From the NCBI RefSeq assembly GCF_017487405.1, contig NZ_CP062222.1:3209001-3273000 (forward strand): a stretch of DNA of 64,000 bases. Reading direction: 5' to 3'. The translations under genes and the position numbers were made by a program. Positions 22,111 through 27,470 of the stretch are shown here, piece after piece. Positions within the stretch are counted from its first letter, which is position 1. Each line of letters starts with the position of its first letter. Source of the stretch: Brevundimonas goettingensis (GTDB lineage Bacteria; Pseudomonadota; Alphaproteobacteria; Caulobacterales; Caulobacteraceae). The notes under the pieces were generated by a model that worked only from the letters and a program-made list of their open reading frames with translations, made no database searches and was not told where the DNA came from.

Positions 22111-23127
22111 CTAGGCCGGCTCTTCCGAAACGCGCACCAGAAGCTTGCCGTCGTGGTCTCCGGTGAACAAGCGGTTCAGGGAGGTCAAGGCGCCTTCGAG
22201 GCCGTTGTCGACGTGGACCTTCCATTTCACCTTGCCCTCGGCCAGCCAGGGGCCGAGCTCGGCGACCATTTCCCTGGCGCGGGGCGAATAGTCCATGACC
22301 AGGAAGCCCTGCATCGTCATCCGGTGGGTGATCAGGCGGCTGAGGTCCGGCGACGGCGGGCGTTTGGTGGCGTTATAGGCCGAGACCATGCCGCAGACGG
22401 CCATGCGGGCGTGCAGGTTCAGCCGGTTCCACACCGCCACCATGATGTCGCCGCCGACGTTCTCGAAATTCAGATCGACGCCGTTCGGGGCCAGACGGTC
22501 GAGCGCCTCACCGACATCCTCGTTCTTGTAGTCGATGGCGGCGTCGAAGCCGAGCTCCTCGACCAGCCAGCGGCATTTGTCGGGCCCGCCGGCGATGCCG
22601 ATGACATGGGCGCCGCGCTGTTTGGCGACCTGGCCGGCGATGGAGCCGACCGCGCCGGCTGCGGCGGAGATGACCATGACCTGACCCGGCTCGGGCTTCA
22701 GCACATCAGTAACGCCGAAGTATGCGGTCATCCCGGTCATGCCCATGACAGACATATTGGCGGTCAGCGGCAGGCCGGGCGCCCGGTGCACCCGCGAGGC
22801 GCCGCTGTCGGGCACGACGCCGTAGTCGGCCCAGCCGCCCATGGCCGTGGTGACCAGATCGCCGACCTTGTATTTCTGCGACTTCGATTCCTCGACGACG
22901 CCCAGCGTCAGGCCGCGCATGACCTCGCCCAGACCCACGGGCGGCAGATAGCCGACGGCGTCGTTCATCCAGGTGCGGTTGGTCGGGTCCAGCGAGAGGT
23001 AGACGGTGCGGACGAGGATATCGCCGTCCTTGAGCTCGGGCGTCGCGCTCTCGACCAGTTCGAGGTCGCCGTCCTTGATCAGACCCTGCGGTCGCTGGCG
23101 CAGGACCCACTGACGATTCATCGGCAT
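22111..23127 (-). CDS. NADP-dependent oxidoreductase (CurA/LTB4DH-type MDR)
   Basis: A 338-residue zinc-free medium-chain dehydrogenase. It starts NRQWVLRQRPQG, has YLSLDPTNRTWM and the Rossmann motif VISAAAGAVGSIAGQVAKQRGAHVIGIAGG, then DLNFENVGGDIM. These are the marks of the leukotriene B4 12-hydroxydehydrogenase / prostaglandin reductase / CurA group, which reduce activated alkenes with NADPH. The cellular substrate is unknown. It is followed by the MaoC-like gene in an apparent two-gene operon. Confidence 0.9.
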   Translation of the reverse strand: MPMNRQWVLRQRPQGLIKDGDLELVESATPELKDGDILVRTVYLSLDPTNRTWMNDAVGYLPPVGLGEVMRGLTLGVVEESKSQKYKVGDLVTTAMGGWADYGVVPDSGASRVHRAPGLPLTANMSVMGMTGMTAYFGVTDVLKPEPGQVMVISAAAGAVGSIAGQVAKQRGAHVIGIAGGPDKCRWLVEELGFDAAIDYKNEDVGEALDRLAPNGVDLNFENVGGDIMVAVWNRLNLHARMAVCGMVSAYNATKRPPSPDLSRLITHRMTMQGFLVMDYSPRAREMVAELGPWLAEGKVKWKVHVDNGLEGALTSLNRLFTGDHDGKLLVRVSEEPA

Positions 23128-23210: not shown

Positions 23211-23241
23211 CAAAGAAAAAGGGCGGACCGTGAGGTCCGCC
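23211..23241 (-). terminator. Second terminator of a tandem pair (minus strand)
   Basis: Read on the minus strand, GGCGGACC-TCAC-GGTCCGCC is followed by CTTTTTC. It repeats the design of the terminator 40 bp upstream (hairpin 23261-23283), and both are preceded on the plus strand by CGCAAAGAAAA, so the unit has been duplicated. It backs up termination of the small RNA before the oxidoreductase gene. Confidence 0.75.
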
Positions 23242-23255
23242 GCCATTCCGCAAAG

Positions 23256-23372
23256 AAAATCGGGCGGATCAGAGATCCGCCCGAGGGAAGTGGCATCATC
23301 GAGAATGAGGCGTGGAGGCGACAGACCGGCTAGGCCGGTCTCAAGTCGGGGGGGCGTCGCCGCCTCCACAGC
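23256..23372 (-). ncRNA. Candidate general-stress small RNA (GsrN-like)
   Basis: A transcription unit without an ORF: a perfect sigma-EcfG promoter at 23378-23402, a predicted start near 23372, and a Rho-independent terminator (hairpin 23261-23283, CGGGCGGAT / ATCCGCCCG, then ATTTTC) about 117 nt downstream. The 5' half folds by GTGGAGGCG pairing with CGCCTCCAC. That stem encloses an unpaired run of seven C and an inner AGACCGGC-CTA-GCCGGTCT hairpin. Promoter class, size, and a 5' domain with an exposed C-rich stretch match what I recall of Caulobacter GsrN, a sigma-T-controlled small RNA. It lies just downstream of the phyR terminator. Sequence homology to GsrN is not verified. Confidence 0.7.
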
Positions 23373-23377
23373 TTGAT

Positions 23378-23402
23378 AACGGCGACTCTTGAAAGCCGTT
23401 CC
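23378..23402 (-). promoter_or_regulatory. Sigma-EcfG promoter of the small RNA
   Basis: On the minus strand GGAAC (23402-23398), a 16-base spacer, then CGTT (23381-23378) match the sigma-EcfG consensus exactly. No protein-coding start follows within reach, which is why the transcript is called as a small RNA. Confidence 0.85.
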
Positions 23403-23536: not shown

Positions 23537-24331
23537 CTAGGCGGCTTCCTTGCGGCGCGAGGGGTGGAAGAACAGGGCCTGGCTGATCGCCGCCTTCACC
23601 GTTTCCGGCTGGAAGGGCTTGGTGATCAGGAAGGTCGGTTCCGGGCGTTCGCCGGTCAGCAGGCGCTCGGGGAAGGCGGTGATGAAGATCACCGGCACGT
23701 CGAAGCGCTTGAGGATGTCCTTGACCGCGTCGATACCCGACGAGCCGTCGGCCAGCTGGATGTCGGCCAGGACCAGACCCGGACGGTGGCGGGCGACGGC
23801 GTCGACGGCCTCGTCATGGGTGGTCGCGGTGGCGGTGACATTGTGGCCCAGCTCGCGAACTAGGCTTTCGATGTCCGCCGAGATGATGGCCTCGTCCTCG
23901 ATGATCAGGACGTCGGTGGCCAGTTCGGCGTCGATCTCGGCCTGGGCCTCGCCGATCAACCGTTCGACGTCATTGACGTCGGCCGACAGGATCTGGGCGG
24001 CTTCGGACGGGGTGAAGCCTTCGAGGGCGGTCAGAAGGAAGGCCTGACGCGAGCGCGGGGCGATGCGCATCAGACGGCGCGAGGCGTCGTCGCGCCCCTC
24101 GATGCCGCTCTGATCTTCCAGCTGGGCGCCGGTCGAGGACCAGATGGCGTGGAACACCTGATAGAGTGCGACCCGCGGGGTCATTTCGGTCGACAACTGG
24201 CGTTCGCCGGCGGCCAGGGCCTCGAGGGCGACGCGAACATAGTTGTCGCCGGTCGCCTGGTCGCCAGTCAGGGCGCGCGCGTAGCGACGGACGTAGGGCA
24301 GATGAGGCGCAAGTCTGGCCAGAAGGCTCAT
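23537..24331 (-). CDS. phyR: General stress anti-anti-sigma response regulator PhyR
   Basis: 264 residues. The N-terminal sigma-factor-like domain (about 1-125, MSLLARLAPHLPYVRRYARALTG and FTPSEAAQILSADVNDVERLI) mimics EcfG to bind NepR. The receiver follows with Glu145/Asp146 (LIIEDEAIIS), phosphoacceptor Asp190 (LVLADIQLADGSSGI), Thr218 (FITAFPERL) and Lys238 (LITKPF); the FITAFPE segment is the FATGUY-type signature. When phosphorylated it sequesters NepR and frees EcfG. An upstream in-frame ATG at 24364 exists; 24331 gives the usual N-terminus. It is divergent from nepR-ecfG and driven by its own sigma-EcfG promoter. Confidence 0.97.
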   Translation of the reverse strand: MSLLARLAPHLPYVRRYARALTGDQATGDNYVRVALEALAAGERQLSTEMTPRVALYQVFHAIWSSTGAQLEDQSGIEGRDDASRRLMRIAPRSRQAFLLTALEGFTPSEAAQILSADVNDVERLIGEAQAEIDAELATDVLIIEDEAIISADIESLVRELGHNVTATATTHDEAVDAVARHRPGLVLADIQLADGSSGIDAVKDILKRFDVPVIFITAFPERLLTGERPEPTFLITKPFQPETVKAAISQALFFHPSRRKEAA

Positions 24332-24406
24332 TTCAGAAAATTCCCCGACATAACAAGGTGACACGCCAAAGACCCCAAGGCGGACCCGGGCGCGTGACCA
24401 GCTCCA

Positions 24407-24499: not shown

Positions 24500-24577
24500 G
24501 TCCGGTTCCATAATGACGTCGATCGCCAAGATCGGCGCGTCCTTGAATGCGTGCAACGGGTGGCGGCCTAATTGTCC

Positions 24578-24781
24578 ATGATCGATACTCCTGACTCCTC
24601 CCGGCGCAAGGCCGCTCCCACAGGCGAGGCCGGGCTGGAAGAGGCCCGTCTGCGCCAGCAGGCCATCGGCGTGAAGCTGCGTCACATGTTCGACGAGGTG
24701 GTCAACGAGCCCATCCCCGACGAATTCCTAGCCATCCTGCGCCGGGCCGACGACAATGCGGGCGAGAAGGGCGGCGAATGA
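24578..24781 (+). CDS. nepR: Anti-sigma factor NepR
   Basis: A 67-residue NepR-family anti-sigma factor that holds EcfG inactive until PhyR-P removes it. The conserved core is IGVKLRHMFDEVVNEPIPDE followed by FLAILRRAD, the two-helix EcfG/PhyR-binding segment. The N-terminus is a disordered polar tail. The ATG at 24578 is preferred; a TTG two codons upstream is also in frame. Its stop overlaps the ecfG start in ATGA, which couples anti-sigma and sigma translation. Transcribed from a sigma-EcfG promoter. Confidence 0.95.
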   Translation: MIDTPDSSRRKAAPTGEAGLEEARLRQQAIGVKLRHMFDEVVNEPIPDEFLAILRRADDNAGEKGGE

Positions 24782-25398
24782 GCGGCTCCTCCTCCCGGCC
24801 GCCGGCGCCGCCCAAACCGCCCTCGGCCGATGACGCCGGGTTCAAGCGCGAACTGGTCACCCTGATTCCGCATCTGCGCGCCTTCGCCCGGACTCTGACC
24901 GGCGATCCGACTGCGGCCGACGACCTGGCCCAGGACGCCATGATGAAGGCGTGGGACGCCCGGGCCAGCTATCAGATGGGCACCAATATGAAGGCCTGGA
25001 CCTTCATGATCCTGCGCAACCAGTTCTATTCCGAGAAGCGCCGCTCCTGGCGTCAGTCGCAGCTGGATCAGGAAGCCGCCGAGCGGACTCTGGTCGCCGT
25101 CGACGATCCCGAGGCGCCCGTCGCCCTGGACGAGCTGCGCATGGCCCTGAACACCCTGCCCGAGGAACAGCGCGAAGCCCTGATCCTCGTCGGGGCCGGC
25201 GGCTTCGCCTATGAAGAGGCGGCCGAAATCTGCCAGTGCGCGGTCGGGACGGTGAAGAGTCGCGTGAGCCGCGCCCGCCGGGCCCTGCAGGCCACGCTGG
25301 AGCGCGGCGGCTATGCCCGCGACGGCAAGGCGGCCGGAGACGCCATGCGGTCCATCCTGGCCGATGCAGACCGTCTGAGCGGCGCCAGGCAGGTCTGA
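24778..25398 (+). CDS. ecfG: General stress sigma factor EcfG (SigT-like)
   Basis: A 206-residue ECF15-type sigma factor. Region 2 reads [20 protein letters not shown] then [17 protein letters not shown], and [20 protein letters not shown] is the -10 reading part. Region 4 ([20 protein letters not shown] then [21 protein letters not shown]) reads the -35. This is the master sigma of the alphaproteobacterial general stress response and probably recognises the four GGAAC-N16-CGTT promoters in this locus. It lies in an operon with nepR and, after 4 bp, phyK. The N-terminal 20 residues are a Pro/Ser-rich extension. Confidence 0.96.
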
Positions 25399-25402
25399 GC
25401 CC

Positions 25403-27205
25403 GTGGTGCGTATCGGCCGCTCCCTGGGCCGCGATCTGAAACGGCGTTTCACGCCCAGGCCCCAGAAGGCCTCGCAGCGGTTCCAGAGCATCCGCTTCCG
25501 GCTGGGCGTGGCCATGGCCATCGCCCTCCTGCCGATCCTGGTGCTGGGCGCGATCCAGACCCAGGCGGACTTCCGCGAACAGGCCGCGGATCGCCGCTCG
25601 GATCTGCAGCTGGCCGCCGCTCGCGCCGCAGCGACCACCAAGGCCCGGCTGGACAGCACCACCATCCTGCTCGAGGCCCTCGGCCCCGAGGCGACCGGCC
25701 CCAGCTGCGGTCCCCGGCTGGGGGCCCTGATCGAGCGGCTCGACGACTATGAGGCCCTCTATCGGATGTCCGGGACCGGGGACATCGTCTGTTCCTCGCG
25801 TCCGCCGCTGGCCACCAGCACCCCCGAGGTGGTCCGCGCCCGGCCCTGGTTCCAGCGGATCGCCGCCGGCGACCCCCTGGTGGTGATGCGTTCCTCGTTG
25901 ACGGTATCGCCCCGCGCCAGCCTGCTGATCGCGTCGCGGGTGGAGCGTCCGCTCGGCCGGTTCGACGGCGGCATGGTCGCCCTGATCCCGCTGGACCGGC
26001 TGCAGCCCGACGTGACCGATCCGGCCCTGCCCAAGGGCGCCCAGGCGGCCCTGACCGACGCGCAAGGGCGCATCCTGACCGCCACAGACGTCCGGGCTTT
26101 CCGCCTCAGGGGAGACCAGACCCTGGAAGGCTGGGTCGAGCGCGCCCGCAGCGACGCCACCGCCCTGTTCGAGGCCGATGACGACCTGGGCCAGCACCGG
26201 GTCTATGCCGGGGCCGCCCTGGCGGGACGCGATGTCTATGTGCTGCTGTCGGCCCCGGCGCCGGGCCTCCTGTCCTGGGCGCAGCTGAATCCGATCGGGT
26301 CGATCCTTCTGCCCTTCGCCGCCTGGCTGGCCGCCTTCGCCGCGGTCATGCTGGTCACCGAGCGGGTGGTCATCCGCTGGCTCGACTATCTGGAACGGAT
26401 CGCCGCCATCTATGCGCGCGGCCGGTTCTCTGTGCGCCCGGTCCAGGCCGCCAACGCCCCGTCGGAAATCCGCCTTCTGGCCCAGACCCTGGACGAGCTG
26501 GCCGAAAACATCACCACCCGCGACGGCATGCTGACAGAGAGCCTGACGGAAAAGGACGCGCTGATGCGCGAGATCCATCACCGGGTGAAGAACAATCTGC
26601 AGATCATCTCGTCGCTGCTGTCGATGCAGCAGCGGGCCCTGACTGACGCCCCGGCCAAGGCGGCGCTGGGCGACACCCGCCAGCGGATCTCGGCCCTGGC
26701 CCTGATCTACCGCACCCTCTACCAGTCCGAGAATATCCGCTATGCCGACGCGCGCGAGTTCCTGACCGAACTGGTCGGCCAGCTGGTCGCCGCCGAGGCC
26801 ATGCGCGGCCCCGTGGTGTCCTCGTCGGTGGAGGCTGACAGTCTGGTGGTCGATCCGGACAAGCTGGCGCCCCTGGCCCTGTGGCTGGTCGAGGCGGTTT
26901 CGAACGCCCAGAAGCACGCCTTCGCCGGGCGCGGCGGCAACCTTCAGGTTCGCTTCAAGGTCGATGGCGACAAGAGCGTGCTGGAGGTCCAGGACGACGG
27001 CCCTGGTCCGGATCAGGCCGCGGTCACCGCCGGGGTCGGACGCACCCTGATGGGCGCCTTCGCCAAACAACTGAGGGGCGAGGCCGAAATTCTGCGCGGT
27101 CCCGACGGCGGCACCATCGCCCGGATGGTCTTCGCCACGCCCGAGGCCGTCGTGCCCAGCGATCCCGCCGATCTGGTCGGAACCGCCAAGCCTCCGTCGC
27201 GTTGA
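25403..27205 (+). CDS. phyK: HWE/HisKA_2 sensor histidine kinase, PhyK-like
   Basis: 600 residues: a cytoplasmic basic start, a first membrane helix (about 33-50, [18 protein letters not shown]), a periplasmic sensor region (about 55-285), a second helix (about 295-320), a HAMP-like linker, then a HisKA_2 domain with [20 protein letters not shown] (phospho-His about 393) and an HATPase with NAQKHAF and VQDDGPGPD. The position directly after ecfG and the kinase class identify it as the PhyR kinase. The start is GTG at 25403 or 25406. Its last codons carry the promoter of the next gene. Confidence 0.9.
27179..27203 (+). promoter_or_regulatory. Sigma-EcfG promoter inside the phyK 3' end
   Basis: GGAAC (27179-27183), 16-base spacer, CGTT (27200-27203), wholly within the last codons and stop of phyK and 53 bp before the entericidin-like ATG. 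It would give stress-specific transcription of that small gene independent of the operon. Confidence 0.85.
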
Positions 27206-27396: not shown

Positions 27397-27470
27397 TAGC
27401 GGAACCGCGTTCTTCGGAGCGCGTTTCCAGGGGCGTCCGTGGCTGGAGAGAGCCGCCGACGCCGTAAAGA

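Follow-up and report, generated by a model that had tools for sequence, protein, structure and literature searches.

A gsrN small RNA gene next to phyR in Brevundimonas goettingensis and the variation of its 5′ head within the genus

A short transcription unit next to phyR in Brevundimonas goettingensis is very likely (probability of about 0.95) the gsrN gene of this Brevundimonas, that is, the gene for a stress-induced, EcfG-transcribed, base-pairing small RNA (sRNA) with a C-rich 5′ loop. The unit lies in a 64,000-nucleotide stretch of the genome, here called the window, and an earlier note on this DNA had described it as GsrN-like. In Caulobacter, GsrN is an sRNA driven by sigma-T/EcfG (Tien et al. 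2018; PMC5869019). Section 14 of that paper, as far as its text was accessible, reports BLASTn homologs of GsrN from Caulobacter, Brevundimonas, and Phenylobacterium that are usually located close to ecfG, nepR, and phyR. Since Brevundimonas homologs near the GSR genes have thus been published, the presence of GsrN in this genus is already known and the sRNA itself is not new. In effect, the sRNA arm of the general stress response has been recovered in a sequence that was read blind and has been tied to a published family. The features of the locus are collected in Table 1.

Table 1. Features of the gsrN locus in the window. Positions are counted from the first letter of the window.
Feature	Positions	Strand	Evidence
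GsrN sRNA gene	23262..23367	−	RF01529 (CC3552) covariance model, whole model 1-106, 84.7 bits, gathering score 50
5′ module: outer stem P1, C7 loop, inner hairpin P2	23312..23369	−	predicted fold (positions 2-59); covariation in P1 and P2
Seven-C run of the 5′ loop, putative target-pairing region by analogy with GsrN (PMC5869019)	23348..23354	−	sequence
Middle segment CCTCATTCTCGATGATGC, near-invariant in most of the genus	23293..23310	−	mean column identity 0.987 (71 units, picked partly by the segment)
Predicted intrinsic terminator 1, hairpin then T-rich tail	23260..23284	−	predicted fold, terminator scan
Predicted intrinsic terminator 2, hairpin, local tandem copy	23222..23241	−	terminator scan
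Sigma-EcfG-type promoter GGAAC-N16-CGTT	23378..23402	−	pattern match; kept upstream in relatives
phyR, response regulator / anti-anti-sigma factor, upstream of gsrN	23537..24364	−	NF006623, 380 bits; PF22029, PF22233, PF00072
nepR, anti-sigma factor	24572..24781	+	NF051865, 107.5 bits; PF18557
ECF sigma factor, EcfG/SigT by position	24778..25398	+	Sigma70_r2, r4_2; TIGR02937
phyK, sensor histidine kinase	25403..27205	+	NF051872, 901 bits
Zinc-type alcohol dehydrogenase-like oxidoreductase, downstream of gsrN	22111..23127	−	PF16884, PF00107

Identity of the RNA

The search with a GsrN covariance model that the earlier note had proposed gave a match to RF01529 (CC3552) from end to end, at a score above the gathering score of the family. 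The loop, the length, and the bases at the published cleavage position also agree with GsrN, and the description of the unit as GsrN-like is therefore upheld. The same note had called the gene invisible to protein annotation; this does not extend to annotation in general, as Rfam has a model for it.

We infer that RF01529 (CC3552) is GsrN, or CCNA_R0081, because the numbering to nt 106, the cleavage at C53/T54, and the loop implied by the published pairing partners all agree. In the accessible text of PMC5869019, GsrN (ccna_R0081) is traced to Landt et al. 2008 and numbered to nt 106, its cleavage is mapped at C53/T54, and its published pairing partners, for instance GUCGGGGGGCGUC, are complementary to the 5′ C-rich loop. 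The loop inferred from these partners, GACGC(6)GACUUGA, is present in the window with seven C residues instead of six. In addition, position 53, counted from the base preceding GGAGG or GAAGG, is a C followed by a T in the window and in the deposited C. vibrioides sequences T5M6 (L112) and OR37 (L149). A literature search, which included CC3552 and R0081 each combined with Caulobacter, found no source that states the equation of RF01529 or CC3552 with GsrN outright, and the accessible portions of PMC11005374 and PMC5988900 hold nothing further on it.

Other models that gave matches were rejected. SorY, at the terminators, reached 27.4 bits against a gathering score of 111, and the matches to MIR8008 and P17 were far under the cut-off.

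It might be argued that the likeness to GsrN is due to convergence alone and that the unit is a different sRNA under the control of EcfG. RNAs with a C-rich loop and an EcfG promoter near the GSR locus have indeed been predicted in other Alphaproteobacteria, largely by position (PMC5869019, accessible text), and the heads of the RNA are rewritten in some relatives, as described below. Nevertheless, convergence is very improbable given the full-length match to RF01529 with the same loop letters and length, the intermediate heads in neighbouring genomes, and the synteny with phyR. Identity with GsrN thus remains the preferred reading.

Distribution in the genus and order

RF01529 was found in 110 of the 131 genomes of the genus, in 105 of them over the cut-off, and 21 had no match; in a first draw, the proportion was 51 of 61. 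In the order Caulobacterales, 52 of 299 genomes carry the family, all 52 of them in Caulobacteraceae. Genome G044 of the genus and the Brevundimonas alba locus L097 have the promoter and the sRNA in common, and the coordinates of their katG matches are identical.

From 98 of the 131 genus genomes, 89 units were picked by the promoter together with a string resembling the middle segment, and the 71 distinct classic units among these were aligned. Nine of the 98 genomes yielded no unit. On inspection, four of these (G057, G164, G375, and G382) show a C-rich head behind the promoter; in G394 and G047, the stretch ends too soon downstream to judge; and in G014, G041, and G363 no gsrN unit is present in the stretch examined. 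In G014 (L239) and G041 (L234), the stretch examined downstream of phyR has no recognisable gsrN unit, and in G014 a terminator-like hairpin alone remains ahead of the oxidoreductase gene.

A paralogous second GsrN, for which G039 and G056 were candidates with RF01529 matches of about 35 bits, was rejected. No strict EcfG promoter lies between −300 and +50 nt of the start of these matches, and they sit in a nearly open frame with one stop in about 717 nt; they are therefore treated as chance. Similar weak extra RF01529 matches occur in G337, G342, and G400. Extra matches to the middle segment in G034 and G052 were also rejected as gsrN, since they lie away from the sRNA and no promoter-led unit was found around them.

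Promoter and locus

On the minus strand, phyR is followed by an EcfG-type promoter, the structured unit, two terminators, and an oxidoreductase gene. The unit is next to phyR, as the earlier note had placed it, and nepR, an ECF sigma gene, and phyK adjoin. Among the best 25 models listed for the ECF sigma gene, the general model TIGR02937 alone is over the cut-off.

The perfect GGAAC-N16-CGTT promoter claimed for the unit is present. In the window, this pattern has five perfect sites where 0.38 would be expected, and none of 100 shuffles reaches five. Three of the five lie inside 1.2 kb, one each in front of the sRNA, phyR, and nepR. Two further perfect matches are on the plus strand, one at the end of phyK (27179-27203) and one about 200 nt further downstream (27401-27425). 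In the whole genome, the pattern is found 42 times and its reversed form 28 times. This enrichment is modest and, therefore, the fixed place of the promoter in relatives outweighs its mere presence. The comparison covered 151 distinct units that were anchored on the loop and had 60 nt or more of upstream sequence. Every one of the 151 is preceded by GGAAC, in most cases at −37 or −38 relative to the anchor; 150 have a relaxed form of the promoter and 90 the strict form. In a control stretch, by comparison, GGAAC is found in 4 of 149 cases and the strict promoter in none of the 149. Such a near-fixed offset in relatives suggests that the sRNA is driven by sigma-EcfG, in line with the earlier description.

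Synteny with phyR is widespread. A loop-pattern scan of genome contigs returned at least 119 stretches, 74 of which have at least 2500 nt ahead of the sRNA recognised by the script; among the matches listed, 72 of these 74 loci have PhyR upstream in the same orientation, the exceptions being L104 and L157. PhyR itself is found in 127 of the 131 genus genomes (E of 1e-40 or better). As to other arrangements, gsrN is on the same contig as phyR at a distance of at least 12 kb in G049, G391, G398, and G402, and the two genes are on separate contigs in G353. They are also on separate contigs in G033, G037, G040, G383, and G392, which is uninformative since these assemblies are fragmented.

Because phyR, the sRNA, and the oxidoreductase gene are on one strand, with the sRNA in between, the stretch could in principle belong to the transcript of the oxidoreductase gene or of phyR, as a long untranslated leader or by read-through, with no separate sRNA. 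This is most unlikely, as the sRNA has its own promoter and the tandem terminator separates it from the oxidoreductase gene. Furthermore, no match to the oxidoreductase was found beside the sRNA in the stretches of other genera that were examined, and the sRNA is at least 12 kb from phyR in the four genomes named above and on another contig in G353. These observations argue for a separate gsrN gene. The stretch had also been described as having no ORF. Strictly, this is not the case, as three open frames cross it, two on the minus strand (133 and 197 aa) and one on the plus strand (407 aa); these frames are taken as spurious, however, because relatives differ by indels there.

Fold and terminators

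The unit is predicted to fold at −60.4 kcal/mol, whereas shuffled sequences have a mean of −37.2 (sd 3.4), giving a z of −6.77, and none of the 200 shuffles is as stable. Both the 5′ stem, with the arms GTGGAGGCG and CGCCTCCAC, and the seven C residues of the earlier description are present. In the centroid structure the C-loop is open, while in the MFE structure two pairs partly close it.

In the 71 distinct classic units of the genus, P1 and P2 have double changes in 12 of their 19 pairs, and 97.6% of the cells are paired compared with 93.3% after shuffling; no shuffle out of 500 is as high, although these shuffles ignore relatedness. When the partners are slid by one to three columns, 31-54% of the cells are paired. 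The compensatory changes across Brevundimonas that had been proposed as a check were thus found, and the promoter, stem, and terminator, whose absence from close relatives would have counted against the proposal, are conserved in them. It is extremely improbable that the sRNA is a silent relic in the window strain, where the promoter, loop, stem, and terminator are intact and the stem itself has U-A for C-G, a double change.

The terminator had been reported as duplicated, and both copies are present, but the duplication is lineage-specific: a second terminator is found in 3 of the 89 units, namely those of the window genome, G038, and G359. The close relative G038 (L020) carries near-identical copies, and the tandem arrangement is probably a recent local duplication.

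Targets and katG

The GsrN loop of C. crescentus pairs with katG mRNA over the first seven nt of the message. Pairing with ribosome-binding sites, for which the earlier note considered the C residues ideal, is a putative role: the proven katG site in Caulobacter is at the 5′ end of the mRNA, where pairing raises translation (PMC5869019, accessible text). Words complementary to the loop were scanned for in the 200 nt before the katG start, with start codons chosen by a script, and the raw counts were compared. At no more than 100 nt from the start, such words occur in five of nine Caulobacter genomes (four at −45 to −47 and one at −30). Within the same distance, they occur in none of three Phenylobacterium, none of four named Brevundimonas (one of which has the same katG leader as a genus locus), and none of 30 genus loci (L062, the window genome, and L205-L233), these being the best-scoring of 54 genomes with a katG match; katG was found in 16 of 18 further genomes. 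In the window genome, there is no such word in the whole 200 nt upstream of the katG start. Between 100 and 200 nt, words are found in two of nine Caulobacter, one of three Phenylobacterium, two of four named Brevundimonas, and 4 of the 30 genus loci, and these are taken as background. Sites are not in excess in the window genome as a whole: AAGTCGGGG, which is complementary to part of the loop, occurs 46 times and its reverse 129 times, a single control that does not separate avoidance from codon use.

With such words near the katG start in five of the nine Caulobacter genomes but in none of the 30 genus loci, GsrN targets probably differ between Caulobacter and Brevundimonas, and katG is probably not a target through its leader in the window organism. 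Pairing with the katG leader is a property of the targets of the Caulobacter RNA and does not define the family. The absence of the words is read as a changed target and not as a loss of membership; PMC5869019, in its accessible text, itself names Brevundimonas homologs on the basis of sequence similarity.

Middle segment and rewritten heads

The middle segment, which we equate with the second exposed region of GsrN, is found in exact form in 102 of the 131 genomes, with none for the reversed control in each; the copies in G034 and G052 are outside the sRNA. Its core, CTCGATGATGC, is present in 47 of 48 loop-anchored genus genomes. These two counts depend less on how the units were picked than the conservation seen in the 71 aligned units does. 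In the 89 units, which were picked partly by a string resembling this segment, the exact 15-base segment is found in 76 and the core in 81, and the exact loop GACGC(3-9)GACTTGA is found in 50, with at least five C in the head in 84.

Several genus genomes in which RF01529 is absent or under the cut-off nevertheless carry, near phyR, a unit of comparable length that has an EcfG promoter and a terminator but an altered 5′ half. In 14 genomes, the 5′ head has been rewritten and the promoter, the middle segment (CTCGATGATGC or near to it), and the terminator are kept, the middle segment being altered in G396. Eleven of them (G007, G023, G031, G043, G045, G051, G059, G266, G349, G355, and G367) form a variant group around G007, G045, and G349 in which the head still has four or five consecutive C. 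Of the other three, G024 and G217 are without a run of four C, and G396 contains CCCC while lacking the classic loop. The variant loci are among L235-L248, L307-L325, L327, L328, L332, and L333. Variants were labelled manually once the sequences had been inspected; a script flagged 15 of the 89 units as non-classic, and G377 was left as classic.

A PhyR tree was built from 101 rows, 93 of which stand for genus genomes (out of the 98) and 8 of which are outside rows. On it, the variant label needs two changes, compared with a mean of 10.5 when labels are shuffled, and both groups stand among classic rows. Two origins of head rewriting are the simplest reading of this tree, of which the well-supported branches force one. 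G005, which is labelled classic, falls inside the larger variant group on a long branch, and the neighbours G001, G026, G357, and G358 have intermediate heads.

The reverse pattern is observed in the basal lineages G042, G057, G164, and G375, which keep the C-loop head and do not have the exact middle segment. Thus, judging from these sequences, the C-loop is the more conserved part across the family, in agreement with Tien et al. (PMC5869019) as far as that paper was accessible. Taken together with the rewritten heads, this indicates that each module can change without the other. A tentative and rather doubtful extension is that GsrN consists of two modules that evolve independently, where the middle segment CTCGATGATGC would be a constant seed in most Brevundimonas, the C-loop an exchangeable head that was rewritten in two groups, and control through the katG leader a feature of the Caulobacter lineage. 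If this is true, the general stress response has retained a single RNA at a fixed locus and exchanged its set of targets. Close relatives that differ in the pairing head but not in promoter, location, or 3′ part would then constitute a natural experiment, and the rewiring of an sRNA regulon would become directly testable. The two-module pattern and the katG-word contrast may be new; no report of rewritten GsrN heads was found in the accessible literature that was searched. In the accessible text of PMC5869019, the second exposed region of GsrN is predicted to pair in 27 of 67 enriched RNAs, and the first 58 nt of GsrN suffice for survival of peroxide; the middle segment may therefore act under other conditions.

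Proposed mechanism

The gene, its promoter, the predicted fold and terminators, the synteny, and the conservation described above are read from the sequence, and the steps that follow are partly borrowed from Caulobacter. By analogy with the general pathway, stress would act on the PhyK-PhyR-NepR switch and free the EcfG sigma factor, which, as in Caulobacter, would transcribe gsrN from the GGAAC-N16-CGTT promoter. Transcription is predicted to end at the tandem intrinsic terminator. The resulting RNA of about 106 nt is predicted to present the C-rich loop on a closed stem. If it behaves like its Caulobacter counterpart, the loop would pair with G-rich stretches of mRNAs, altering their translation or stability, and the RNA would be cleaved near nt 53. 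Through its second unpaired segment, CTCGATGATGC, the RNA probably base-pairs with an additional set of partners.

Comparison with known systems

The window sRNA is like GsrN of C. crescentus (CCNA_R0081; PMC5869019, accessible text) in its EcfG/SigT-type promoter, its length of about 106 nt, its GACGC(n)GACUUGA loop, its stem, inner hairpin, and terminator, and the bases at the published cleavage position. By contrast, the window gsrN adjoins phyR, whereas that of C. crescentus is distal to it; the window loop has seven C and that of C. crescentus six; and the window copy has a tandem terminator, in a genome without a loop-complementary word near the katG start. The middle segment also differs, being CTCGATGATGC in the window and GTTGATGCGAACTC in C. 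vibrioides OR37 (L149). The GsrN-like RNAs predicted in Rhizobiaceae and other Alphaproteobacteria (PMC5869019, section 14 and legend of Figure 9) have in common with the window sRNA an EcfG promoter near the GSR locus and an exposed C-rich 5′ loop. According to the accessible text, their prediction relied chiefly on position, promoter, and transcript data. Among the 299 Caulobacterales genomes, RF01529 matched in Caulobacteraceae alone. Compared with RF01529 itself, the window sRNA matches the whole model with no difference of weight and is thus a member of this family.
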